Position numbers and translations under genes: made by a program. Shown piece by piece: positions 5,470 through 21,308 of a stretch of 64,000 bases of DNA. The notes beneath the pieces are model-generated. The model saw only the letters and a program-made list of their open reading frames with translations. It did no database searches and was not told where the DNA came from. The DNA is from Rhizobium sp. Q54. Its GTDB lineage: Bacteria > Pseudomonadota > Alphaproteobacteria > SMXS01. The stretch covers positions 1 to 64,000 of the forward strand of contig CAMDTB010000007.1 of NCBI GenBank assembly GCA_945907245.1, read 5' to 3'. How positions within the stretch are numbered: the stretch's first letter is position 1; every line of letters starts with the position of its first letter.

Positions 5470-5925
5470 CTAGTCGCGGCCGTGGATGCCGGTGAGCGAT
5501 TCCGGGAGCGGCATCAGGCCGCTCTCGGCGAACCGGCTCAGCTTCCACCCTGACGGCGTGCGGACATAGTCGAGGAAGTATTTCACGTAGACCAGCACGC
5601 TCTGGCCGTCGCGGGCAACGCCCATGCCCATCACATAGGCGGTGCAGGTCGCCGTATCGCCGTCCATCCGGGCAACCGTGAAGTTGCTGATGAAGTGGGC
5701 GTGATGGGTCATGTCCTCGAAAACCTGGGTGAAGAAATAGCGGATTCCCGCATGCCCATCGAAGCGCGGCAGATTGATGCCCCCCAGGTCGAGGACCGCG
5801 TCCTCGGTGAAGCACGCCAGCAGGCCGTCCATGTCGGACAGCGAGTCGATGGCCGCGCAATAGGCGTTCAGCACGTCCTCCAGCGCCAGACGGTCCTCGA
5901 TCTTCTTCCAGCGTTCTTCCGACAT
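5470..5925 (-). CDS. SnoaL-like / NTF2-fold protein
   Basis: A 151-residue protein beginning with the helix IEDRLALEDVLNAYCAAIDS and continuing DMDGLLACFTEDAVLDLGGI, then HHAHFISNFTVARMDGDTAT and WKLSRFAESGLMPLP. This pattern is common among nuclear-transport-factor-2-like proteins near aromatic or steroid catabolic genes. No unambiguous catalytic Asp/His pair can be assigned. The ATG at 5925 follows GGGGAGGG. It is the third gene, same strand, after the GMC dehydrogenase and flavin monooxygenase, but a 77-base gap with its own palindrome suggests a separate promoter. Confidence 0.8.
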   Translation of the reverse strand: MSEERWKKIEDRLALEDVLNAYCAAIDSLSDMDGLLACFTEDAVLDLGGINLPRFDGHAGIRYFFTQVFEDMTHHAHFISNFTVARMDGDTATCTAYVMGMGVARDGQSVLVYVKYFLDYVRTPSGWKLSRFAESGLMPLPESLTGIHGRD

Positions 5926-5982
5926 GCGGTCCCTCCCCGTTTCGCAGAAAAATACCATGCCCTTCAGGGACGTGGCGGGTCA

Positions 5983-5996
5983 ACTGAACAAACAGT
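5983..5996. promoter_or_regulatory. Inverted repeat upstream of SnoaL-like gene
   Basis: ACTG-AACAAA-CAGT is a 4-base inverted repeat in an A/T-rich patch just after the flavin monooxygenase stop and about 57 bases before the SnoaL-like start. It has the look of a TetR half-site pair. The evidence is weak because the arms are short. Confidence 0.3.
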
Positions 5997-6002
5997 CATT
6001 TT

Positions 6003-7142
6003 TCAGCGGCGGGTCAGCGCCTGCCCGATCAGCCGCGCCGACGTGCGCGCCGAGATGGTGAAGGCGAAGAACGGCCCGAAATCCCGTGTCGCCGGCATGG
6101 AGGTGATGTACAGGCCGGGAATGCTGGTCTGGAAATGTTCGTCGAGCACCGGGAAGCCATCAACGACTTCCATCTGTCCCTGCAGGTCGGCGAGAAATGG
6201 CACCCGCGCGATCCGCACCCGGTAACCGGTCGCGAAGATGACGTGATCGACCTGCAGCGTCGCGCCGCTGTCCAGGGTCACCGCGAGGCCGTCACCGGTT
6301 TCCGCGGAGGATACGAGGTTGGTGCGCGGCCACAGGCTGATGCCCGGCCGCATCACCCGGCTTTCCAGCCACGGCTCGACCTTGGACCGGCCTTCGATCC
6401 AGAGGCGCTTCGCCAGACCGTCCTGTTCTTCCTTCGACAGGCCGCGGAACCAGCCGGGATCGTCGACCATCGCATCGACCAATGGGTTCACCCACGACCA
6501 GTCCGACGCCTCGAAGGCAGGGGAGTCGTGCCGGTGCGACACGTGGACCTGGGCCGCACCCTCGTCGGCCAGGATCGCCGCCCATTCGAACGCGCTCTGG
6601 CGGCCGCCGACGATCAGCACCCGCTTGTTCTTGAACCGCGCAAGGTCTGCCGGGTAGCCGGTATGCGACCAGCGGCCGGGCGGCAGCATCCGCGCCAGTT
6701 CTGCCGGGAGGTTCGCGAAGTTGCCGAAGCCCACCGCCACGGCCACGTTGCGCGCCCTGATGAAGGAAACGGTGTCCAGCGTTGCGACAAAGCCGTCGGG
6801 AGTCCGCTCGAGCGCCCTTACCATGCCGGGACGCGGCTCGATGCCCTTTTGCTGGCGGAACCACTCCGCATATTCCAGGTAGACATCGCGCGACAGCGGC
6901 TCCACGTCGCCCGGCGCCTGTCCCCGCGTGGCGAGAAACGCCTCGATGGTATGCTCGCCATCGGCGTCCAGATGCCAGTCGCAGGCCGAACGCAGAACCA
7001 TGCCCTGCGGCATGTTGTCCTTCCAGAAACCCATGGGCTTGCCGACGACCACCGTCTCCAGACCCAGCGCGCGGGCATGGGCGGCCAGCGACAGCCCGAA
7101 CGGGCCGGCGCCGATGACCAGCAAGTCGGCCGGCGCGGTCAT
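6003..7142 (-). CDS. FAD-dependent monooxygenase-like protein (NAD(P)/FAD oxidoreductase)
   Basis: A 379-residue flavoprotein with an N-terminal FAD site GAGPFG (residues 11-16), a second dinucleotide site in VLIVGGRQSAFEWAAIL, and the IFATGYRV segment common to flavin-containing and N-hydroxylating monooxygenases. A clear Baeyer-Villiger FxGxxxHxxxW signature is not seen; the equivalent region reads WSHTGYPADL. It could hydroxylate a substrate or insert oxygen. Its ATG overlaps the stop of the upstream GMC dehydrogenase as ATGA, so the two are translationally coupled. An alcohol oxidised by the GMC enzyme could then be oxygenated here; that order is inference. Confidence 0.8.
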   Translation of the reverse strand: MTAPADLLVIGAGPFGLSLAAHARALGLETVVVGKPMGFWKDNMPQGMVLRSACDWHLDADGEHTIEAFLATRGQAPGDVEPLSRDVYLEYAEWFRQQKGIEPRPGMVRALERTPDGFVATLDTVSFIRARNVAVAVGFGNFANLPAELARMLPPGRWSHTGYPADLARFKNKRVLIVGGRQSAFEWAAILADEGAAQVHVSHRHDSPAFEASDWSWVNPLVDAMVDDPGWFRGLSKEEQDGLAKRLWIEGRSKVEPWLESRVMRPGISLWPRTNLVSSAETGDGLAVTLDSGATLQVDHVIFATGYRVRIARVPFLADLQGQMEVVDGFPVLDEHFQTSIPGLYITSMPATRDFGPFFAFTISARTSARLIGQALTRR

Positions 7143-8803
7143 GCGGTGCGCCGTTCAGGAACATCGCCGAACACGGGAACCTCTTCCGGCGCCGGCGGCG
7201 CGCGGCCCAGGATCATGTCGGCGGCCTTTTCCGCGATCATGATCGTCGGCGCGTTGGTGTTGCCGCCGATCAGCGTCGGCATGACCGACGCATCGACCAC
7301 CCGCAGACCGGTCAACCCCATCACCTTGAGCGTGTCATCCACCACGGCCAGAGGATCGCCGGGCAGACCCATGCGGCAGGTGCCGACCGGATGATAGATC
7401 GTCTCGGCAGCGCGGGTGATCCAGGCGTCGATCTGGTCGTCGTCCTGGACGTCGATGCCCGGATTGAGTTCCGGTCCGTGCAGGCCGTCGAGCGCAGGCT
7501 GGGCGATGACGTGGCGCAGCATGCGGATGCCGTCTCGCATGGACCGGCGGTCGTTGTCCGACGCCAGGTAGTTGCCCCGGATCGCCGGATCGTCGAACGG
7601 GTCGGCCGTACGCAGCCCGACGCTGCCCCGACTCTCCGGTCGCAGCTGGCAGACATGGACCGAGAAGCCGTCACGGTCCATGGGCACCCGGCCATGATCC
7701 TGCATCAGCGCCAGCACGCAGTGGAGTTGCAGATCGGGCAGGTCGAGGTCCGGCCGCGACTTTAGGAACGCGCCGGCCTCGAGGAAGTTCTGCCGCCCGG
7801 GCCCCTGCCCGCGCAGCAGGTAGTTGAGCCCTGTGGCCAGCTTGGCGAGCCCCCGGTTATGCGTGAACGCGGTGATCGGCCTGGGGCATTCCCACGCCAG
7901 GATGACGTCGAGGTGATCCTGCAGGTTCTGCCCGACACCCTTGAGCGCATGCACCGACTCGATGCCCGCCGCCGCCAGCGCCTCGGGGTCGCCGATACCG
8001 GACAGCTGCAGGATGTGGGGCGACTGCACCGCGCCGGCGCAGAGCAGCACCTCGGCGTTCGCGTGGACCATGCGGCGCCGCCGGTCCTTGCCCTGGGCGA
8101 ACTCGACGCCGGTCGCGCGGCCGCCGTCGACCAGGATGCGGGTGGTTCGCGCGTCGATTTCCGTGAACAGGTTCGGCCGCTTGCCCAGGATCGGGCGCAA
8201 ATATGCGGCCGACGCGCTCCAGCGCCGGCCATCGCGGATGTTGAGCTGGTACGGGCCGAAGCCTTCCTGCTGGTAGCCGTTGAAGTCAGCGGTCCGCCGG
8301 TGGCCGGCCTGCTCGCCCGCGGCGATGAACCCCTGGAAGATCGGGTTGGGTGTCGCGGCGCTGGAGATGTGCAGCGGGCCGTCGGCGCCATGATAGGCAT
8401 CACCGCCGCCTTCCAGCGCCTCGGAGCGCTTGAAATAGGGCAGCACCTCGGCATAGGACCAGCCGCGCAGCCCCAGCTGCCGCCAATGGTCGTAGTCCCG
8501 CGCATGACCGCGGATATAGATCATGCCGTTGATGGAGGACGAGCCGCCCCAACCCCTGCCGCGCGGCCACCATAACCGACGGTTGCCCAGGCACGGTTCA
8601 GGCTCGGTCCAGAAGCCCCAATTGTAGGGCCCTTTTGCCTTGATCAGCTGACCGGCGCCCGCCGGCATGCGCACCAGCAGCGAATCGTCCCGGCCGCCCG
8701 CCTCGAGCAGCAGCACCGTGGTTTTGCCGTCCTGCGTCAGCCGGTTGGCCAGCACGCAGCCGGCCGACCCCGCGCCGATGACGATGTAATCGTAGCGGTC
8801 CAT
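7139..8803 (-). CDS. GMC family oxidoreductase (choline/alcohol dehydrogenase type)
   Basis: A 554-residue FAD enzyme. The N-terminus carries the Rossmann motif GAGSAG within MDRYDYIVIGAGSAGCVLAN and LLLEAGG; the GMC signature region reads WWPRGRGWGGSSSINGMIY. Near the C-terminus YHPVGTCRMG supplies the catalytic His, followed by the conserved SVMPTLIGGNTNAPTIMIAE stretch. GMC enzymes oxidise alcohols to aldehydes or ketones. The ATG at 8803 follows GGAGG; a longer frame to 8893 lacks support. It overlaps the downstream flavin monooxygenase by four bases. A second GMC gene lies at 48507. Substrate unknown. Confidence 0.92.
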   Translation of the reverse strand: MDRYDYIVIGAGSAGCVLANRLTQDGKTTVLLLEAGGRDDSLLVRMPAGAGQLIKAKGPYNWGFWTEPEPCLGNRRLWWPRGRGWGGSSSINGMIYIRGHARDYDHWRQLGLRGWSYAEVLPYFKRSEALEGGGDAYHGADGPLHISSAATPNPIFQGFIAAGEQAGHRRTADFNGYQQEGFGPYQLNIRDGRRWSASAAYLRPILGKRPNLFTEIDARTTRILVDGGRATGVEFAQGKDRRRRMVHANAEVLLCAGAVQSPHILQLSGIGDPEALAAAGIESVHALKGVGQNLQDHLDVILAWECPRPITAFTHNRGLAKLATGLNYLLRGQGPGRQNFLEAGAFLKSRPDLDLPDLQLHCVLALMQDHGRVPMDRDGFSVHVCQLRPESRGSVGLRTADPFDDPAIRGNYLASDNDRRSMRDGIRMLRHVIAQPALDGLHGPELNPGIDVQDDDQIDAWITRAAETIYHPVGTCRMGLPGDPLAVVDDTLKVMGLTGLRVVDASVMPTLIGGNTNAPTIMIAEKAADMILGRAPPAPEEVPVFGDVPERRTA

Positions 8804-8908
8804 ACCAGGCGGCCTCCCCTCCGGTCGCCGGAGCAGCCTATGCCGCGCCCTCACCAATTGTCGAGCGCCCGCGGCATCGAAGAACCGACGCACTTGGTCG
8901 CAGGGCGG

Positions 8909-9196
8909 CTACTTGAATCGCGACGCCGCCGCCTTGACCGCCTCGCCCATGTCGTCCCACGCCTTTTCCATGCCGGCCCGCATCTCGGACCATGCGTCCT
9001 CGCTCGCCCGCCGGAGCAGATCCAGCTGGAGTTTCGCCTGCTCCGATCTGGCACGAAGCGCCTCGATCTGCGCCTGATACACGGCCTTAGCCTCGGCCTG
9101 GGCCTTGCGCGTCCGGCCTTCGAGCGCGTCGACTTCCGCATTCCATGCATCGAGTTGCGATTTCAGCTTCTCGACATACGCGTCTCTCGTACTCAT
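8909..9196 (-). CDS. Small coiled-coil protein (sll1863-like stress-response family)
   Basis: A 95-residue, highly helical protein with a long heptad-like segment (YVEKLKSQLDAWNAEVDALE through RARSEQAKLQLDLLRRASED) and the conserved tail GMEKAWDDMGEAVKAAASRF. It lacks a signal peptide and membrane segment. It resembles small cytoplasmic proteins annotated as sll1863-type stress proteins or apolipoprotein-like coiled coils; their role is poorly defined. The ATG at 9196 is preceded by CGGAGT. It lies between the catabolic cluster and the SWIM/MoxR operon, in line with both but separated by gaps of 105 and 197 bases. Confidence 0.75.
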   Translation of the reverse strand: MSTRDAYVEKLKSQLDAWNAEVDALEGRTRKAQAEAKAVYQAQIEALRARSEQAKLQLDLLRRASEDAWSEMRAGMEKAWDDMGEAVKAAASRFK

Positions 9197-9393
9197 CTGT
9201 CGATACTCCGGTTGAGTGGCTGCGCGGCAGGACGCTGCCATGCCTGCACCGGCACTCTTCTAGCCTGACGCCGGCGATCGCGGTGTGATCTGGATCAACG
9301 CCGCACCGTACGCCGGCTGGCGCTTGGAGCCTTACGCCGCCGGGCCGCCAGTGCGACACACCGATCACTGGAAGGTCGGGTGCGGCGGCCGTC

Positions 9394-10587
9394 TCACTTG
9401 CCGTCGGCCTGATAGGCACGGATGGTCTTGATGTCGTTATCGGCGGCCCAGGCGTCGATGTCCTCGCGGCGCAGCGCCGTCGCCATCAAGTCGGGAAACT
9501 GGTCCGGCGTGCAGGCAAACGCCGGAATTCCGAGCGCCGCGACCTTGGCGGTCAGCGACGGATCGTAGGATGGCCGGCCCGTATCGGTCAGCGCCAGGAG
9601 TACGATGACGTTGACGCCGGCCGCAACGAGCCGCGACAGCCTCTCCAGCAGTTCAGCGGCGTTGCCGCCTTCATACATGTCGGAGATCAGGATCAGATGG
9701 CTTTTCGCCGGCCGTTCGATCCGGTCGGCGCAGTAGGCGATGGCCTGGTTGATGTCCGTGCCACCGCCGAGCTGAATCCCAAACAGTACCTCGACCGGGT
9801 CGGCCAGTTCGTCGGTCAGGTCGAAGATCGCCGTATCGAAGCACACGAGACGGGTGGCGACCACTGGCAGCGATGCCATGACGGCGGCGAAGATCGAGGC
9901 ATAAACAACCGATGCGGCCATGGACCCCGACTGGTCGACGCAAAGCACCACCTCGTCGAGGTCGACCAGCCGTCGCTGATGGCGCATGAAACCCGTCAGG
10001 CGTTCGGGCACGATAGTGCGGTATTTCGGCTGGTAGTGACGCAGGTTGGCCTGGATGGTGCGCGGCCAGTCGATGTCGGCGAAGCGCGGGCGGCGGGTTC
10101 TCCGCGACCGGTCCAGCGCGCCGCGGATCGCCTCGGCGGTGCGGCGCTCCAGCCGCTCCATCAGCTGCGCGACCACCTTACCGATCACCATGCGCGCGGT
10201 TTCCTTGGTGGCAGCCGGCATTACCCCGCGCAGGCTGACCAGATCAGCGACCAGGTTGACGTCCGCTTCGACGGTGGCGAGCAACTCCGGTTCCAGCAGC
10301 ATCCGCCGAAGCCCCTTCCGCTCGAACGCATCGCGCTGGATGATCTGCACCACCGGTGACGGGAAGAACTCGCGGATGTCGCCCAGCCATTTCGCCACCT
10401 TCGGTGCCGAGCCGCCGAGGCCGCCCCGTCCCTTCTTCCTGCCGGCATTCTGATCGCCGGTGTCGCCGTAAAGCGCATCGAGCGCTGCCGACATGCGGCG
10501 GTCGTTTTCCGATAGCCTTTCGTCACCATCGTCATCGACGCCCAGCGCCAGCGCCCAGCGGCGTTCGCGTTCCGGATCGGTACTCAC
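9394..10587 (-). CDS. VWA domain protein (YehP-like), last gene of the MoxR operon
   Basis: A 397-residue protein from a GTG start preceded by GGGGAGG. The GTG overlaps the upstream TGA as GTGA, which fixes the start. Residues 60-205 are helical and basic. A von Willebrand A domain covers about 212-390 with a complete MIDAS motif: D218-Q-S-G-S222 (VDQSGSM), the Thr of GGGTD at 277 and an Asp at 251 (CFDTAI). VWA partners of MoxR ATPases usually act as metal-dependent adaptors that bring a substrate or cofactor step to the ATPase. Length and gene order match E. coli YehP. No signal peptide is seen, so it is probably cytoplasmic. Confidence 0.88.
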   Translation of the reverse strand: MSTDPERERRWALALGVDDDGDERLSENDRRMSAALDALYGDTGDQNAGRKKGRGGLGGSAPKVAKWLGDIREFFPSPVVQIIQRDAFERKGLRRMLLEPELLATVEADVNLVADLVSLRGVMPAATKETARMVIGKVVAQLMERLERRTAEAIRGALDRSRRTRRPRFADIDWPRTIQANLRHYQPKYRTIVPERLTGFMRHQRRLVDLDEVVLCVDQSGSMAASVVYASIFAAVMASLPVVATRLVCFDTAIFDLTDELADPVEVLFGIQLGGGTDINQAIAYCADRIERPAKSHLILISDMYEGGNAAELLERLSRLVAAGVNVIVLLALTDTGRPSYDPSLTAKVAALGIPAFACTPDQFPDLMATALRREDIDAWAADNDIKTIRAYQADGK

Positions 10588-12815
10588 CGGCGCCTCCCCG
10601 CTTCTAGAAGTGCCAGGAGCCTGGGGAACTGCGCCGACCACACGGCGTCCGCGTCGGGTACCAGCGAGAGACCACCTGACTCGGCCCGGCGACGGACGAA
10701 CAGCGCATCCATGAGACGTCTGCGCTCCGATCGGTCGAGAGCCGAGAACACCCGCCGGAACAGGGGCAGATGGGCGACGAAATCCGCCTCTTCCAACTGC
10801 AGCAGCCATGCATCCACGGCGGCGCGCAAGCCTTGGTCGTGAACCAGCCGGTTGCCCACCCCTTCGAAGAATCCCTCGAAGAAGCCGGCAGCGTCGGTCA
10901 CCTGTGTGCCCGGCGACAGCATCCGGGCCAGCAATGTCGCCGCCTCTTCGGCGTCCAGATGCTGCGCCTCATAGAGAAGTTGGGCCGTCGAGCCCGCCAC
11001 GAGCGTCGTGGTCTGCGAGTCCTCAAGGGTGTGGCGCAGGGCTCGATGCCAGCCATCGAGAACGTCGCCATCCATCTGGGCGAGCCGGATCGCGCCGTCT
11101 GCCTGCCGGATCTCGCCGGACAAGGTGACCGACGCCGCGGCGTCCAGATTGCGAGCGGCGTAAGGCAAGGCCAGCGCCGCCTGCACGACCATGCGCGGCA
11201 TGAGTTCGCCAAGCTTTTCCGCCGCGCCGGCCCGGGCCTCGCCGTAGCGCACCACATCGGCCATCGGCGGAAGCGCCCGCAACAGCGCGCCGCATTCGCT
11301 GGTCAGCGCCGCCTGATGGCTGAGCGCCTCGATACCGATGCTGGACGCCCTGGGCAAGTCGGCGACCATCGCGCTTCGCACCAGTCCAGCCAGCGCGTCC
11401 AGGCTCGGCTCCGCGCCCATCGCCTCGCTGATCCGCGTGGACGCCGCTTCCTCGATGGTCGAGCCATAGACAAGGTTCTCCACCAGCCGCACGGCGTATT
11501 CCGGCTCCCAGCAGATCACCCACTTTTCCCGAAACGTGCCTCTGCTGGCGCCGGCGTCCGTCAATCGGCCCCACGGGACATCGATTGCGTTCAACCGATG
11601 CAGCAACGTGGAACGGAGCAGCCCGCTCTCGCTGCGCAGGTCGACGGACAGCTCGCGCTCCAGCGCCTCCGGTTTGAGGCGTGTCGCGCGTTGCTGGCGC
11701 TGCAGGTCATCGAGCAGCGGCGCCAGCGGCATGGTTTCGGGAATTGCGCCGACTCGCGCGCCGATCAGCAGGTCGCTCGCGATCTGCTCCCACAAGATGC
11801 GCTCGCCGAAGCACAGGCAGGAGATCGACGCATCGCGCCATTCCTCGAATCCCGGCGCCGGCCGGCCGCGAAGTGCCGCGAGCGCGATGCCGAGACGATG
11901 CGTCTCGATCACCGAGGCGGTGGATACGAAGTGACCGTGATCGCGCATCAGCTGAGCGATGCGCGCGAGCCATATGCCGTCGCGCTCGGGTAGAGCGGCG
12001 GTGCGCCATAGATGCGTGCACCACGCCGGCGCGACGACACCGGCGCCGTAACCGCTCGACCGCGCGAGGCGAGCTTCCGTCCAAGGCGCCCAGGTCGCCT
12101 TGATCCTGGTCCTGGGCCGGCCTTTCAGCAGCCGCCGGTCCGCTGCCATCGTGTGCGTCTCGGTCAGCGCGGGCACGTGCCACGCACCGCAAACCACCGC
12201 GACCTGACCGTCGAACTCATTCACGGCGCGGGCGATTTCGAGCCGCATATGGGCCTCGCGCGCGGCTTCGTCGCGGTTTGGCTGCCCCGCTTCGGAGCGT
12301 AGCGCCGCCATAGCGTCGGCGACCGCTGCGAAGACCGGTCCGGGCGACGGATTCTCCTCGATGACGTCGCGCCACCAGGATTCGCCATCGTCATAGCCGG
12401 CAGCGCGCGCCAGCACGCCGATCGGATCGTGGATGAGCGGATCGGCATCGCCATCCGGGCCTTCCACAGGCGTATCGACATCCGGCCGTTCCGGGGCGAG
12501 CCGGTCCTGGGCCGGCAGGTCGATGAACCGCAAGGCCGCGCCATGCCGCACCGCCCAGAGCGCCGCCTGGTACTCGGGAGAGTATTCCTCGAACGGAAGG
12601 AACAACGCGTTGGCCGGATCGTCCTCGGCATAGGCAAGCAGCGCGACCGGCGTCACCATGGCCGGATCGGCCAGCAACGGCAGCATATCCGACAGGTCGG
12701 AGGGGCCCTCGATCAGCACGGCGGTGGGCGACAAGGAGTCCAGCACCTCGACGAGCCGGCGCGCGGAGCCCGGCCCGTGATGGCGAATGCCGAAAATGGA
12801 GACCGTGCCCGTCAC
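10584..12815 (-). CDS. DUF5682 family protein (YehM-like)
   Basis: A 743-residue protein starting MTGTVSIFGIRHHGPGSARR, the hallmark opening of DUF5682. The N-terminal third has features reminiscent of TraB/ChaN/TIKI-type domains: GIRHHGPGSA at 9-18, AVLIEGPSD at 32-40, RFIDLP near 96-101 and VVCGAWHVPAL at 207-217. These conserved His and Glu residues could form an active site; that is my inference. The rest is a long helical region. It overlaps the VWA gene by four bases and follows the MoxR gene by seven. Length and position match E. coli YehM (about 760 residues). Function is not established. Confidence 0.85.
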   Translation of the reverse strand: MTGTVSIFGIRHHGPGSARRLVEVLDSLSPTAVLIEGPSDLSDMLPLLADPAMVTPVALLAYAEDDPANALFLPFEEYSPEYQAALWAVRHGAALRFIDLPAQDRLAPERPDVDTPVEGPDGDADPLIHDPIGVLARAAGYDDGESWWRDVIEENPSPGPVFAAVADAMAALRSEAGQPNRDEAAREAHMRLEIARAVNEFDGQVAVVCGAWHVPALTETHTMAADRRLLKGRPRTRIKATWAPWTEARLARSSGYGAGVVAPAWCTHLWRTAALPERDGIWLARIAQLMRDHGHFVSTASVIETHRLGIALAALRGRPAPGFEEWRDASISCLCFGERILWEQIASDLLIGARVGAIPETMPLAPLLDDLQRQQRATRLKPEALERELSVDLRSESGLLRSTLLHRLNAIDVPWGRLTDAGASRGTFREKWVICWEPEYAVRLVENLVYGSTIEEAASTRISEAMGAEPSLDALAGLVRSAMVADLPRASSIGIEALSHQAALTSECGALLRALPPMADVVRYGEARAGAAEKLGELMPRMVVQAALALPYAARNLDAAASVTLSGEIRQADGAIRLAQMDGDVLDGWHRALRHTLEDSQTTTLVAGSTAQLLYEAQHLDAEEAATLLARMLSPGTQVTDAAGFFEGFFEGVGNRLVHDQGLRAAVDAWLLQLEEADFVAHLPLFRRVFSALDRSERRRLMDALFVRRRAESGGLSLVPDADAVWSAQFPRLLALLEAGRRR

Positions 12816-12822
12816 CAGCGCC

Positions 12823-13899
12823 TCAGATCTGGTCGATCAGCGACTTGTAATACCGCTCGTAGCCGGCGCGCTTCTTCAGCACCGTCTCGAGATATTCGCC
12901 CAGGACGATCTTGTCCTGCACCGGGTCCTTGACCACCGCGCCGATCATGTTGCTGGCCAGGCTGTCGGGGGTCAGATCGCCTTTGTTGAAGAACGTCGCA
13001 TGACTGATCCCGCCGACCATTACCGCGATGGCCTCGGCGGTCGACAGGCCGCCCGAAGGCGTCTTCAGCGCCACCTTGCCATCCTCGGTCGAGCCCGCTC
13101 TCAGTTCGCGGAAGATGGCGACAACGCGAGCCACTTCCTCGGCCACGTTCCTGGGCAGCGGAAGGTCGAGGTTCTGGGCCATTTCGCCGACCCGCTTGAC
13201 GACGATGGCGACTTCTTCCCTGGGATCGCTTGGCAACGGCAGCACGACCACGTTGAACCGGCGCTTCAGCGCCGACGACAGTTCGTTGACGCCCTTGTCC
13301 CGGTTGTTGGCGGTAGCGATGATGTTGAAGCCGCGCGCCGCGAACACCAGCTGGTTGAGTTCCGGGATCGGCATCATCATTTCCGACAGCACGGTAATCA
13401 GCGTGTCCTGGACGTCGCTGCCCATGCGCGTCAGTTCCTCGAGGCGGCAGAGCCTGCCGGTTTCCATCGCCCGCATCAGCGGCGTAGCGACCAGCGCTTC
13501 GCGGCTGGGGCCATTGGCCAGCAGCTGCGCGTAGTTCCAGCCATACCGGATCTGATTCTCGTCGGTGCCGGCCGTGCATTGCACTACCAGTGTCGAATCC
13601 CCCGAAATCGCCGCCGACAGGTGCTCAGATACCCAGGATTTCGCCGTGCCGGGCACACCCAGCAGCAGCAGCGCCCGGTCCGTCGCCAGAGTCGAAACGG
13701 CGGTTTCGATCAGCCGGCGGTCGCCCACATATTTCGGGCTGATCGCGGTGCCGTCCGCCGCCTTGCCACCCATCAGGTAGGTCACCACCGCGCGAGGCGT
13801 CATGGCCCAGCCGGGCGGCTTGCCGCCACCTTCCTTGCCGAGGGCCGCGAGTTCCGCGCCGTAGCGTTCCTCCGCGGGCAGCCTGAGTTTCTCGCTCAT
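12823..13899 (-). CDS. MoxR-type AAA+ ATPase (YehL-like)
   Basis: A 358-residue AAA+ protein. Walker A is GVPGTAKS at 81-88. The Walker B region reads LCRLEELTRMG (150-160), with Glu where the usual DE Asp stands. Sensor-1 is the Asn pair in IIATANNRD (193-200), and an arginine finger is likely in LKRRFN (210-215). MoxR ATPases are chaperone-like machines that work with VWA proteins in complex maturation. This sequence fits the YehL branch, which is encoded with DUF5682, VWA and SWIM genes. It overlaps the upstream DUF5691 gene by four bases. GCCACC precedes the ATG and no strong ribosome site is visible, consistent with coupling. Confidence 0.9.
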   Translation of the reverse strand: MSEKLRLPAEERYGAELAALGKEGGGKPPGWAMTPRAVVTYLMGGKAADGTAISPKYVGDRRLIETAVSTLATDRALLLLGVPGTAKSWVSEHLSAAISGDSTLVVQCTAGTDENQIRYGWNYAQLLANGPSREALVATPLMRAMETGRLCRLEELTRMGSDVQDTLITVLSEMMMPIPELNQLVFAARGFNIIATANNRDKGVNELSSALKRRFNVVVLPLPSDPREEVAIVVKRVGEMAQNLDLPLPRNVAEEVARVVAIFRELRAGSTEDGKVALKTPSGGLSTAEAIAVMVGGISHATFFNKGDLTPDSLASNMIGAVVKDPVQDKIVLGEYLETVLKKRAGYERYYKSLIDQI

Positions 13900-15320
13900 T
13901 CGGTGGCTCCATTTTCTTTCAGTGCAGCGTTGAGGCGCAGCATGTCCAGGCGGGCATCCGCGCTGACGATGCCTGCAGCGGCGAGACGGTCCAGGGCCAC
14001 CCGCGCGCCGTCGCGGGAAACCAGCATCCCCAGGGCGTACAGCTCCTGGTTCAAGGTCATGTTCGCGGTGGTGTTGGATTGCGCATCCGCCAGCGCCTTG
14101 AGCAGACTTCGCCCGGCCCTCGTGTCCAGTGCACCGTCGAGGCCCAGACCGGCCCCAAGGTCCAGCGCGATCGCGAAACTGCCCCCGTCGGCCTCCAGCG
14201 CGCGGCGCATCACCGCATGCTTCTGCCTCATGGTCATACGCCCGGCGAGCGAGATAAACAGCGGAACAGTGATTGTCCTCTGGGCCGAGAGCCGGTCGAG
14301 GCAGAGTGCGACGACCTCGTCGGGCGCCGAGCGGGCGGCCATCGCCATCAGGAGGCCGTCTGCCTCTTGGTCGTCGCCCAGCGGCCAGCTCGCAACCAAC
14401 TCCTGTGGGGTCATCTGTAAGGCAGCCGCGAAGGCCGCGAGATCAATCTCGCCGAACAGCGTGGCGCGTCTGGACCGCTGTGCCGGCGTCTTGACCTGAC
14501 GGGCCGCGGCGGTCCGGGTCCGCCGCAGGAACCCTGACGTCCGCACCTCGAAGAATTCGGCCAGCTCGGTGATATCTGCGGCCGCTCCCACGCCGCCATG
14601 GCCGAGGCGGGAGAGGTAGGCCGACGCCATAGCCTTGATGCGCGGCGACCGGTCCGCAAGCAGGCTCTCCAGATAGGGCCGGTCGCGATCCGACAGGCCG
14701 GCCGCCAGCAAGTCGATCAGCTTGAGCCGTATTTCCGCACTCTCCCCGCTGGCTCTGGCGGCGAGCAACTCGACGGCGCGGCCCGGATTCCGCTGGCGCA
14801 GGGCAGCGAACGCGATGCGCCGCGCCGTGGGAAAGTAATCGTCCCAGCTTTCCTCGGAGAGCTCGTCTGCCGGCGGCGCCAGGCGCGTCCGCTCCGAGGC
14901 CGCTCGGTCCCACCAGTCGCGCCAGGGGGCATAGGCGTCGGGCAGAATGTCGTCGCCACGCGATGGCAGCCAGTCCTCGGGGTGAATCACCACGCCCCGC
15001 GCTGCCAGGAAGAACAGCAGCCTGGCATCCCGGTATTGCTCCATCAGCCGGCGCGCGGTGCCGCGCTGCCGCTGCGGCAGGGTTGGAAGACCCAGAGGCG
15101 GCAGATCGGGCAGCGCCCGGAGCGTCTCCGGTGTACTGGCGCGCACCGTGACATCCAGGAACTGCGCAGCCAGCACCAGCAGCCGCAGTTCCGCCTCGTC
15201 GTCGTCGACCCCCTCGAGCGCAGGGCGCCAGTCGCCGGGCGCCGTGCCGGCGGCCCGCCCGCCGACAGTCCACCGGATCGCGACCGGCTCGAGCATCTTG
15301 AGGATCGCGTCAGCCGTCAC
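13896..15320 (-). CDS. DUF5691 family helical-repeat protein
   Basis: A 474-residue protein, starting at a GTG (15320) that follows GGGGGAGG and overlaps the end of the SWIM gene by 11 bases. A longer open frame exists upstream to 15596, but that part is Arg/Pro/Cys-rich and antisense-like in composition, so it is rejected. The sequence is rich in short amphipathic helices with HEAT-like character, for example LIDLLAAGLSDRDRPYLESL and RSPRIKAMASAYLSRLG. There are no recognisable catalytic motifs. It sits between SWIM and MoxR genes, where DUF5691 genes are typically found; a scaffold or substrate-binding role is plausible but unproven. Confidence 0.8.
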   Translation of the reverse strand: MTADAILKMLEPVAIRWTVGGRAAGTAPGDWRPALEGVDDDEAELRLLVLAAQFLDVTVRASTPETLRALPDLPPLGLPTLPQRQRGTARRLMEQYRDARLLFFLAARGVVIHPEDWLPSRGDDILPDAYAPWRDWWDRAASERTRLAPPADELSEESWDDYFPTARRIAFAALRQRNPGRAVELLAARASGESAEIRLKLIDLLAAGLSDRDRPYLESLLADRSPRIKAMASAYLSRLGHGGVGAAADITELAEFFEVRTSGFLRRTRTAAARQVKTPAQRSRRATLFGEIDLAAFAAALQMTPQELVASWPLGDDQEADGLLMAMAARSAPDEVVALCLDRLSAQRTITVPLFISLAGRMTMRQKHAVMRRALEADGGSFAIALDLGAGLGLDGALDTRAGRSLLKALADAQSNTTANMTLNQELYALGMLVSRDGARVALDRLAAAGIVSADARLDMLRLNAALKENGATE

Positions 15321-16707
15321 AGCCGATCCTCCCCCAGTGCGTCTCCGCCGCCAGCAGGTCCAGCCTGCCTGCCGACCAGATTGCCGCCGCCCGGTGCAGA
15401 TCGGTGGCGCGCGCCAACGCTCCCGGATCGCCGGCGAGCGGGAGCACCGTATCGCCGCCGCGCCACCACAGACGGTCGGCGCCGTCGAGGGCAAGGCGGC
15501 CGGCCGGCAGCAGGACCAGGGTTTCGACTTGCCACGGTTCCTCGGTGGCCTGTCGCTGGACGGCAGCGAGCACGCTGCAAGGTTCAGCGGATTCATCCAC
15601 CGGCCATTTCAGCCTTGCGGCGCCCTCGGCCATCGGCGTGCGGCTGACCAGCAAGGCGCGCATCGGCAGGCGCGCTGGATAGAACGCGATTTCGGCGTGA
15701 AACTGTTCGCCGGCAGAAAAGCTGGACAGCCGCCGGCCGGCGGTCGCCGGGTAGTGATCGACCAGAACCGCGAAACGTGGATCGTTCGAGGTCAGGTTGA
15801 GAAGCCACGTGGTCTGCGACACCAGGCCATCCCGCCTGGTCTCGATACGTTCACCGAGCACCTCCCACGTCGCCATAACTCGTGGAGCAGCCGGATCCTC
15901 GAGTACGGCATCGCGTGATTCCGCGGCAGCGATGCAACGCCTGACCTCGGCATCGCCGGGGCGCGCTCGGTAGGCCCGCGCCAGCAGCACCAGCTTGCCC
16001 AACTCGACGACCGCCGCGCGGACGCGGTCGCCCGTGGGCAGCGCCAGAAGGCGCGACGGCAGTTCATCGAGCCGGCCCGCCAGCACGGGCGCCTTGCCGT
16101 CGACCAGCCGCGCGGCGATACGCCGGCACCGGCCCACGGCGTCATCGACGAACCCTGAAAGCCCGAGACGCAACTGATCCCCGACCCATTGTTCGAGCGC
16201 CTCGAGCGCGTCCAGGATCGCGCGGTCCGTTTCGGCCGCCCGCTTCTGAGCAGCCGCCGCGCGGCGCTCGGCAGCCTTGGGATCCTCGGCCGCCTCCGGT
16301 TCGGCCTGGCGCGCTTCATCGAGGCTCTTGCGCGGCGCCATCGTTCCGTCGGCAGCGTCGGCGGGCTTGCCCGTCTTGCGACGGCGGCCCAGCCAGTCGG
16401 TTACCCACTCGGGAATGTCCGCGGCCGGGAACGGCGCGGCGCTGTCAGCCCGCATCCACATCAGCGCGATGGCGTGCTTGCATGGAAATTTGCGCGATGG
16501 GCAGGTGCATTTGCTGCCCATGTCGCCCAGATCCGCCATGACCCGATAAGGATTGGCGCCGGATCCGGCGCACTCGCCCCAGACGAACTGGCCGTCGTGG
16601 CTGGATCCGATCCCGGACCACTTGGCCGGCTTCATCAAGCCGGCGGCTGCCTTCAACGAAGACTGATCGGGTGCGAGCGCGGCTATGGCATCCGGGTCAA
16701 TCTTCAT
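15310..16707 (-). CDS. SWIM zinc-finger protein (YehQ-like), first gene of the operon
   Basis: A 465-residue protein with a perfect SWIM signature, C67-x-C69-x6-C76-x-H78 (CTCPSRKFPCKH), expected to bind zinc and take part in nucleic-acid or protein binding. An acidic/Ala-rich linker follows (residues about 120-160), then a helical C-terminal half. I place the start at the ATG 16707; a TTG three codons upstream is possible and neither has a strong ribosome site. This is the first of five overlapping or abutting genes (SWIM, DUF5691, MoxR, DUF5682, VWA), an order related to E. coli yehQ/yehLMP. Its promoter must lie in 16708-16841. Confidence 0.88.
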   Translation of the reverse strand: MKIDPDAIAALAPDQSSLKAAAGLMKPAKWSGIGSSHDGQFVWGECAGSGANPYRVMADLGDMGSKCTCPSRKFPCKHAIALMWMRADSAAPFPAADIPEWVTDWLGRRRKTGKPADAADGTMAPRKSLDEARQAEPEAAEDPKAAERRAAAAQKRAAETDRAILDALEALEQWVGDQLRLGLSGFVDDAVGRCRRIAARLVDGKAPVLAGRLDELPSRLLALPTGDRVRAAVVELGKLVLLARAYRARPGDAEVRRCIAAAESRDAVLEDPAAPRVMATWEVLGERIETRRDGLVSQTTWLLNLTSNDPRFAVLVDHYPATAGRRLSSFSAGEQFHAEIAFYPARLPMRALLVSRTPMAEGAARLKWPVDESAEPCSVLAAVQRQATEEPWQVETLVLLPAGRLALDGADRLWWRGGDTVLPLAGDPGALARATDLHRAAAIWSAGRLDLLAAETHWGRIGCDG

Positions 16708-16841
16708 GGCGTCCAATAAGGGTCTCGAAACGGAATGAGGAGATTATTGCAAGCGGCCAATGCGATCCAGCCGGCTTGCACATCCACTGGAAACACGGCG
16801 CGCTTGTCACTATCGTCCGGCAGAACCGACAGGAGAATACC

Positions 16842-19576: not shown

Positions 19577-20449
19577 ATGTTCAAGGTTTTCGCTTTTCTC
19601 AAGCGCAACGTCCGGCTGACGCACGACGAATACCGGGCGGGGCACATCGGCTACCATTCCGGCCATTCGCGGCGCATGAAGGGCATGCGCGGCTATTGCG
19701 TGAACGTCTGGGCCAACCGCGACCTGAAGCAGGCGCTGGGGACGTTGCACGACCAGATCGTCCGCGGCGCGCCGGCCGGCTTCCTCGACCAGTGGGACGG
19801 CTTCCCCTGCGTCCATTTCGACAGCAACGCCACCTGGATCGGCTCGAGCGAACCGGAGAAGACCCGCGCCACCGCCGAGGGCCTGGCCGTCGATCCGGAC
19901 CGCACCCCCGACGACGGACCGTACCTGTTCGACGAAATCCCGGACTCGGGCGGCGACTTCCGCTCGCACCATCTGCGCATGGACGAGCACGTCATGCTGC
20001 CGGTCGAGCGGGTGGAGTACAAGCAGACCAAGCTGGTTCAGTTCTTCCGCCGGAATCCCGCCGTTCCCGAGAATGCCTTCCGCGCCGGCGTGCTGACCCG
20101 GCACGCCCCGCTCGCCGCGAAGATGAAGGGCCTGAACGGCTACATCGCCAATTTCCGCGACCCGGACCAGGAAGCCGCCATCCGCGGCTTCTACCCCGAT
20201 GGCAGCTGGCGTTTCAGCGCCGAGGGCCGCGCCTTCAGCGAGGCGTTCTGCTCGCTGTGGGACGGCGCCAACGAGCTGTGGTTCGACAGCCTCGACGCAT
20301 TCAAGGCCGCTCGCACCGACCCGGACATCGCCCCCGAGATGGACGCCCTGGAGCGCCACCTGTTCGAGGCGGTCTGGCTGGTGGAAGTGGACGAGAGCGT
20401 GATCGTCATGCCGAACCGGGACCCCGCGCCCGCTTTCTATTACCGGTAG
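19577..20449 (+). CDS. Two-domain EthD-like (dimeric alpha/beta-barrel) protein
   Basis: A 290-residue protein made of two similar halves. The first starts MFKVFAFLKRNVRLTHDEYR and contains MKGMRGYCVNVW; the second starts KLVQFFRRNPAVPENAFRAG and contains MKGLNGYIANFRD. Each half ends with a WxxF/ELWFD segment and a DEHV/DESV strand. EthD proteins are normally about 100-residue homodimers of the ABM-like fold; this appears to be a fused pseudo-dimer. Family members act near oxygenase or P450 systems, often with unknown chemistry. The gene follows the Rieske oxygenase and is 10 bases before a paralogue at 20460. Confidence 0.8.
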   Translation: MFKVFAFLKRNVRLTHDEYRAGHIGYHSGHSRRMKGMRGYCVNVWANRDLKQALGTLHDQIVRGAPAGFLDQWDGFPCVHFDSNATWIGSSEPEKTRATAEGLAVDPDRTPDDGPYLFDEIPDSGGDFRSHHLRMDEHVMLPVERVEYKQTKLVQFFRRNPAVPENAFRAGVLTRHAPLAAKMKGLNGYIANFRDPDQEAAIRGFYPDGSWRFSAEGRAFSEAFCSLWDGANELWFDSLDAFKAARTDPDIAPEMDALERHLFEAVWLVEVDESVIVMPNRDPAPAFYYR

Positions 20450-20459
20450 GAGAACGGGG

Positions 20460-21308
20460 ATGCTGAAGGTCTTCGGCTTCGTCCGCCGCAACGCCAAACT
20501 CACCCACGACGAGTACCGCGCGGCCCATGTGGGCTACCACAATTCCTATGGTCGCCGCCTTCCCGGCATCCGCGGCTACATCCTCAATGTCTGGTCCAAC
20601 ACGCCGGTGAGCGAGCGCCTGGGACCGTTGGCCGCCCGCATCACCCGGAACGAGCCCGCCGGCTTCGACGCGATGACCGACGGCTGGGGCCAGCTGATGT
20701 TCGACGACCTGACCGAGTATCTGGCCGGCAAGAGCCCGTCCCGCGACCGCGCCGGGCCGAACGGTCTCGCCGACGATCCCAAGGTGGGCGACGTCGGCGG
20801 CGACGGCGACTACCTCTATGACGGCTCGCCGTTCCAGTTCCACATCGACGAGCATGTGGCCAAGCCGGTGCGCCGGCCGGAGAGAAAATCGTTCAAGCTG
20901 GTGCAGCTCGGCAAGCGCCCGGACGGCATGTCGCCCGAGGAATTCCGCGCCATATGGACCGGCCGCTACGCGGCGCATATCAACACCATCCCTGGACTGC
21001 GCGGCCATATCGTGAATTTCCGCACCGGGCTCGACGCCATGACCGGCTTCTTCCCGCCCAGCTCGGAAGCCTTCACCGAAGCGGGCGCCGTTCGCCGCCA
21101 GACGTTCTTCGACACCTTCGACGGCATCGCCGAGCTGTGGTTCGACCGGCCCGAGCAGTTCATCGCCGGCCGCGCCGATCCGACGCTCGGCCAGAAGCTC
21201 GACGCGCTGGAGCGGAAACTGTTCGCCAGCGTGTTCTACCGCGAGGTGGACGAGACCATCGCCGTCCTGCCCAACCGGGCTCCGGCGCCGGATTTCTATT
21301 ACCGCTAG
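20460..21308 (+). CDS. Two-domain EthD-like protein, paralogue
   Basis: A 282-residue protein with the same two-half design as its neighbour: MLKVFGFVRRNAKLTHDEYR with LPGIRGYILNVW in half one, and SFKLVQLGKRPDGMSPEEFR with IPGLRGHIVNFRT in half two. GWGQLMFDDL and GIAELWFDRP are equivalent segments of the two halves. The ending NRAPAPDFYYR almost repeats the ending of the preceding protein. AGGAGAACGGGG before the ATG gives strong translation 10 bases after the upstream stop. It is closer to the third copy at 22922 than to the one at 19577 by eye. No reaction can be assigned. Confidence 0.8.
   Translation: MLKVFGFVRRNAKLTHDEYRAAHVGYHNSYGRRLPGIRGYILNVWSNTPVSERLGPLAARITRNEPAGFDAMTDGWGQLMFDDLTEYLAGKSPSRDRAGPNGLADDPKVGDVGGDGDYLYDGSPFQFHIDEHVAKPVRRPERKSFKLVQLGKRPDGMSPEEFRAIWTGRYAAHINTIPGLRGHIVNFRTGLDAMTGFFPPSSEAFTEAGAVRRQTFFDTFDGIAELWFDRPEQFIAGRADPTLGQKLDALERKLFASVFYREVDETIAVLPNRAPAPDFYYR

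Follow-up and report, generated by a model that had tools for sequence, protein, structure and literature searches.

What is the job of a five-gene set in which a MoxR ATPase and a VWA protein are accompanied by a SWIM zinc-finger protein and members of two uncharacterized families, DUF5691 and DUF5682? Such a set lies in the studied stretch of Rhizobium sp. Q54 DNA (contig CAMDTB010000007.1, positions 1 to 64,000; hereafter, the window of 64,000 nucleotides), and the original prediction regarded it as a dedicated system with no assigned role. In our literature search, no paper named DUF5682 or DUF5691, the genes yehL, yehM, yehP, and yehQ were found in strain descriptions or lists only, and neither the function of the Escherichia coli counterpart nor a five-gene machine was described, although wider literature could hold more. 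Our preferred reading, to which we give a probability of roughly 40%, is an ATP-dependent five-protein machine, in which a MoxR ring with a VWA adaptor would remodel a target to be cut by DUF5682, a putative hydrolase. New here are the putative enzyme domain of DUF5682 and its placement in a superfamily.

Operon Layout and Family Assignments

The five genes form a single minus-strand operon (9394–16707) transcribed in the order SWIM, DUF5691, MoxR, DUF5682, VWA. The predicted content is borne out, as all five products score over the Pfam cut-offs and all genes lie on one strand. The features are listed below.

15310–16707, minus strand: SWIM zinc-finger protein, 465 aa (PF04434, 33.8 bits)
13896–15320, minus strand: DUF5691 HEAT-like helical-repeat protein, 474 aa, GTG start (PF18944, about 58 bits; weak HEAT_2)
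12823–13899, minus strand: MoxR AAA+ ATPase assigned to the YehL branch, 358 aa (AAA_5 PF07728, 127.5 bits; alignment; tree)
10584–12815, minus strand: DUF5682 protein, 743 aa, GTG start (PF18934, 668 bits, 2.2e-200)
9394–10587, minus strand: VWA_CoxE protein, GTG start, intact MIDAS (PF05762, 183.7 bits against a cut-off of 26.4)
12030–12815, minus strand: putative enzyme domain of DUF5682 (invariant residues; AlphaFold2 model of the domain alone)
9299–16839, no strand: stretch missing at the matching site of three same-genus genomes (flanks adjacent)

The genes are joined by three overlaps (11, 4, and 4 bases) and one 7-base gap, between MoxR and DUF5682; such tight junctions make one shared transcript for all five genes likely. 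The four figures given originally are thus correct, with the seven being a gap and not an overlap. Promoter and terminator scans at the operon revealed nothing exceeding the shuffled expectation.

The SWIM protein has the motif CxCPSRKFPCxH close to its N-terminus, with Cys67, Cys69, Cys76, and His78 invariant in 65 sequences, and shows no Pfam match outside this zinc motif. In MoxR, Walker A (GxPGTAKS), Walker B (RxEE), and the sensor (ATAN) are all conserved in an alignment of 24 sequences, and the intact MIDAS of the VWA protein (DQSGS, T, D) is formed by Asp217, Ser219, Ser221, Thr251, and Asp302, invariant in 19 sequences.

Elsewhere in the window, two adjacent genes downstream of a Rieske-type oxygenase gene (19577–20449 and 20460–21308) form a tandem duplication, their products being clearly alike (MFKVFAFLKRN.../MLKVFGFVRRN...).

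Conservation of the Five-Gene Set

A DUF5682 alignment was used to scan one genome per species (about 85,000 species), and the best 80 loci were taken; being chosen as best DUF5682 matches, they favor the type of system present here, and their neighbors were not a selection criterion. According to the record titles, these loci span the Alpha-, Beta-, and Gammaproteobacteria, Actinomycetota, Bacteroidota, Cyanobacteriota, Chloroflexota, Planctomycetota, Verrucomicrobiota, Acidobacteriota, Deinococcota, and Desulfobacterota. Among those with enough flank, all five families stand together at 61 out of 62 loci from about ten phyla, with identical order and strand in 57 out of 62; in four streptomycete-type loci, the SWIM–DUF5691 pair is divergent. 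The exception is one cyanobacterium with DUF5682 apart from the other four genes and DUF5691 elsewhere in its genome. This is the co-occurrence across bacteria that had been proposed as a check, and because of it DUF5691 is a core part of a widespread five-gene type (type I), with that of E. coli as its sister. One gene order kept over about ten phyla implies a definite job for a five-part machine.

Broader samples agree. DUF5682 was found in seven out of 385 genomes of the class, and DUF5691 exceeded its cut-off in exactly the five type I genomes of these 385 and in no other; the phylum-wide sample yielded DUF5682 in 14 out of 398 genomes. In both samples together, ten out of ten type I genomes carry all five genes, or whatever part of the set the fetched stretch shows, and every type I locus fetched in full has the five genes in order. 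Pairwise distances correlate between the families (r from 0.85 to 0.92, at most 0.22 for the best of 500 permutations), with shared descent of the organisms contributing to this correlation. The 61 loci, the distance correlations, and the confinement of DUF5691 to type I genomes rule out chance neighbors, and in the best explanation the machine passes on as a single unit, both by descent and by transfer.

In two cyanobacterial loci (L081 and L027), DUF5682 stands alone, away from its four usual partners, with DUF5691 elsewhere in the same genomes. In a Verrucomicrobiaceae locus (L044, 4079–4801), a 241-aa protein without a Pfam match is encoded between MoxR and DUF5682.

The Sister Type and the HEAT-Repeat Protein

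The E. coli homologs are distant, with identities of 26% for YehM (DUF5682), 40% for YehL (MoxR), and 34% for YehP (VWA). E. coli and seven further genomes have the order DUF4132–MoxR–DUF5682–VWA–SWIM and no DUF5691; in an eighth further genome of the sister type, DUF4132 occupies another position. The operon had been described as matching yehLMPQ with DUF5691 added. The match holds for MoxR, DUF5682, VWA, and SWIM, which are common to both types, but DUF5691 is no mere addition, since the type that contains it is the widespread one, and in the sister YehI (DUF4132) fills its place. Alignment of YehQ with the type I SWIM profile is limited to the zinc motif, the proteins being barely alignable.

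The sister-type DUF4132 proteins carry HEAT repeats, as, weakly, does DUF5691; therefore, some HEAT-repeat protein seems to be needed in both types, the supplying family being DUF5691 in one and DUF4132 in the other. One genome (G586) has both types of system, and in two Bacteroidota loci (L046, 13418–16351; L076, 12430–15417) DUF4132 stands alongside the five-gene type, once between DUF5682 and VWA.

The MoxR Branch

Subfamilies of MoxR, YehL included, have been defined earlier (PMC3893208). The operon MoxR matches YehL with an E-value of 5.6e-72 at the 40% identity given above, compared with a BLAST E-value of 0.074 for RavA and values from about 1e-15 to 2e-6 for other MoxR paralogs, and the branch supports in the tree are 0.97–0.98. 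In ten operon-bearing genomes, the operon copy of MoxR shows 59–67% identity, and the next-best paralog at most 34%. Judged by sequence, the operon MoxR thus belongs to the YehL branch, away from RavA and the other paralogs, with SWIM, DUF5682, and VWA genes as neighbors. The suspected YehL membership is thereby confirmed; neither a lack of co-conservation nor a placement of MoxR in another branch was seen, and the co-occurrence of the families together with this grouping supports the view of a dedicated, self-contained system without an assigned role.

Neighboring Genes

Among 95 flanking ORFs of related loci, each family is represented four times at most, the commonest being a generic transporter. 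A conserved neighboring client was considered and ruled out, as the recurrence reflects just synteny inherited vertically among streptomycetes, plus a scatter of common families. In particular, no recurrent metalloenzyme that could be a client of the CoxD/CoxE kind is found among these ORFs. The flanking ORFs also include matches to the MADS defence system, namely two to mad3 and two to mad8.

Genes of RtcB lie near the operon in loci L051 (3976–5397), L067 (3234–5919, with RtcA), L050 (17959–19092), and L175 (17883–18992). In Variovorax sp. OK212 (L052, about 5700–9956), an HSP90-like gene and a gene of a TPR-like protein separate MoxR from DUF5682, and an HSP90 gene adjoins the operon in Variovorax sp. 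OV700 (L045, 3219–5261). A link to RNA repair via RtcB is possible; like the HSP90 neighbors, it was noticed post hoc and stands outside the main argument.

One could imagine a stress machine for protein quality or linked to RNA repair, which would clear away damaged complexes or remodel them and in which HSP90 and RtcB would take part occasionally. The four RtcB loci come from three phyla, 39 out of 44 operon-bearing genomes have RtcB, and HSP90 genes are beside or inside the operon in the two Variovorax loci. Yet RtcB is common anyway (nine out of 14 control genomes), neither RtcB nor HSP90 adjoins the operon at most loci, and both links were picked post hoc among many possible neighbor families. 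We consider this explanation quite improbable.

A Cassette With Probable Horizontal Spread

A further correction concerns the genomic context: three sequenced relatives lack the operon at the matching site, and it is probably an insertion. In this genome, it constitutes a cassette of about 7.5 kb, and DUF5682 is absent from six same-genus genomes examined. In three of them (G003, G001, and G005), the flanks are side by side at 82–91% identity, the unalignable sequence between them being 111, 77, and 73 bp long; the left flank extends to 9298 or about 8823, and the right one starts from 16840 or 16810. No repeats or mobility genes were identified at the cassette ends.

In the gene tree, the window copy groups with Sphingomonas and Bradyrhizobium copies, and copies from Akkermansiaceae, Bifidobacteriaceae, and Acidobacteriota fall among alphaproteobacterial ones. 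Plasmid records carry DUF5682 too, mostly large rhizobial and actinobacterial replicons. By these comparisons, horizontal gain of the cassette appears likelier than its loss in the relatives.

Patchy distribution, with seven genomes out of 385 in the class and none of the six same-genus ones, and probable insertion at sites empty in relatives are also what would be expected from a conflict or anti-phage system, and in conflict systems already described, effectors are under the control of MoxR–vWA pairs (PMC7159879); DUF5682 would then be an effector unleashed once a MoxR–VWA threshold is passed. Still, a PADLOC search gave no convincing match to a known defence system, the five genes having no match except marginal mad8 (MoxR, E-value 0.016; PADLOC-DB 2.0), and defence matches are few among the 95 flanking ORFs. 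Moreover, the partners are nearly invariant, with no variable effector, and the sister type occurs in 5,301 out of 5,426 complete E. coli genomes, unlike an accessory defence system. Hence, we regard a conflict system as unlikely.

The N-Terminal Domain of DUF5682

Full-length DUF5682 was modeled by AlphaFold2 with 83 homologs. The model (mean pLDDT 91.4) consists of an alpha/beta domain (residues 1 to ~250) and a helical-repeat tail (~263–743), whose repeats resemble HEAT and importin folds according to structure comparison. PDB matches of the full-length model were all helical-repeat proteins, stemming from the C-terminal half, and therefore the N-terminal domain was searched alone (AlphaFold2 pLDDT 89.5 when folded alone).

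The 13 best VIA-align rows are headed by one Tetrahymena complex IV subunit, present as three entries (Z 9.8–9.9), followed by ChaN (Z 8.3 over 159 residues, rmsd 5.6), HopBA1 (7.4), EreC and BcR135 (6.8–7.0), RRSP (5.4–6.3), and the C-terminal region of PMT (6.3); histidine phosphatases and other folds score at most 5.6, and Z near 8 is weak if taken alone. ChaN, HopBA1, BcR135, RRSP, and PMT have been grouped, together with the Ere family, as the TIKI superfamily (PMC6254334). Foldseek yielded no match of the N-terminal domain at E-values up to 0.001, the best one being EreC (0.09).

Comparison of profiles by hhalign with 17 TraB/PrgY/GumN proteins gave a probability of 83% (E-value 1e-6), and at most 0.1% for the control profiles (SWIM, MoxR, VWA). 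In the TraB/PrgY/GumN alignment, GIRHH falls on the first GxxH and GAWHVPA on the second. A Pfam scan of the consensus N-terminal domain neither matched the TraB model nor found a relative, and HMM searches of PDB sequences found none either.

The residues Arg11, His12, Glu36, Asp99, Arg173, Arg186, Glu187, Met190, Gly210, and His213 are unchanged in 84 out of 84 sequences, YehM included, and Gly9 is kept in 81. The motif G9xxH12 ends strand 1 and Glu36 ends strand 2, with Asp99, Arg186–Glu187, and G210xxH213 further on; 24 out of 34 fully invariant positions fall within the first third of the protein. The succession His, Glu, Arg, His matches the one seen in the superfamily, with spacing comparable to TraB and RRSP. 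Cleavage by VvRRSP requires two His, two Glu, and Arg (PMC6254334), and the second catalytic Glu has no obvious counterpart in DUF5682. Since the fold (with the ChaN match), the TraB profile match, and the invariant His12, Glu36, Arg186, and His213 agree, we assign the N-terminal domain (~1–250), as predicted and modeled, to the TIKI/TraB/EreA/ChaN superfamily, and it may be an active hydrolase. The original statement that no enzyme next to the operon looks like a client overlooked DUF5682 itself, which carries this enzyme-like domain.

A full-length DUF5682 (31% identity) is also encoded in the phage record MT835988.1 (10638–12755), a 14-kb fecal "Bacteriophage sp." that is possibly bacterial DNA.

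The same fold allows for a different interpretation, in which the operon encodes a MoxR–VWA maturation chaperone and DUF5682 is a metal or heme carrier, or the client, with no bond hydrolyzed. Among named proteins, the best structural match is ChaN, a heme binder, and thus a TIKI-type fold can bind heme instead of cutting bonds. The operon VWA protein is of the CoxE family, and pairs of MoxR and VWA proteins serve in the maturation of methanol dehydrogenase, NO reductase, and CO dehydrogenase (PMC3893208). Against this, the 95 flanking ORFs show no recurring metalloenzyme, and the four invariant residues reproduce the catalytic pattern of the superfamily, not a heme ligand set. On balance, a maturation chaperone seems rather doubtful, being nonetheless the strongest of the alternatives.

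The Proposed Machine

The architecture of the five-gene system is well supported; its chemistry, substrate, and role are proposed below in conditional terms. Gene order suggests that the five products may physically assemble. In the preferred reading of a hydrolytic machine, which is the most economical model, the SWIM and HEAT proteins would be the receptor recognizing or positioning the target, the VWA protein the adaptor, MoxR the motor, and DUF5682 the executor. MoxR would assemble as a hexameric ring, and its VWA adaptor might grip an acidic residue on the target, by analogy with CbbQ/CbbO acting on rubisco. ATP-driven remodeling by MoxR would then lay the target open to the active site of DUF5682, or switch the site on, and a peptide, ester, or amide bond would be cut solely once the whole complex has assembled. 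The hydrolysis, substrate, and trigger steps are those that we infer.

A more specific version, tentative and on the unlikely side, is a new class of ATP-gated hydrolases: a TIKI-fold protease or esterase loaded or activated by a MoxR ring with VWA and served by zinc and HEAT receptors, YehI–YehLMPQ being its E. coli form. If true, its logic would be analogous to that of AAA+ proteases, with unrelated catalytic parts. With candidate catalytic residues pinpointed and one HEAT protein exchanged for another between the types, the function becomes directly testable in E. coli K-12.

Comparison With Known Systems

RavA–ViaA is likewise a pair of MoxR and VWA proteins, but RavA belongs to a different MoxR branch, and the operon VWA protein scores 12.8 bits against the ViaA model, below the cut-off of 500. 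The rubisco activase CbbQO shares the MoxR ATPase and a VWA protein with MIDAS; there, a MoxR hexamer carries one VWA subunit, whose MIDAS binds an acidic residue of the target, with ATP-driven remodeling (PMC4660213). In contrast to the operon, CbbQO has two components and a known client, and no SWIM, HEAT, or TIKI-fold partner.

MoxR–vWA ternary conflict systems resemble the operon in having a MoxR–VWA core, extra partner proteins, and patchy spread; the logic is common, whereas the third components differ (PMC7159879). No VMAP, iSTAND, FtsH, or beta-propeller third component is found among the five genes, with bpMoxR scoring 23.1 bits against a cut-off of 27.

With TIKI/TraB/PrgY/GumN, EreA, and ChaN, the N-terminal domain of DUF5682 has in common the predicted fold and the His–Glu–Arg–His pattern; unlike them, it continues into a long helical-repeat tail and is linked to an AAA+ machine. 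In E. coli yehI–yehLMPQ, as here, genes of a YehL-branch MoxR, DUF5682, VWA, and SWIM are adjacent. The E. coli set differs in having DUF4132 (YehI) instead of DUF5691 and the SWIM gene last, and in being nearly universal in its species, whereas the present operon is a sporadic cassette.
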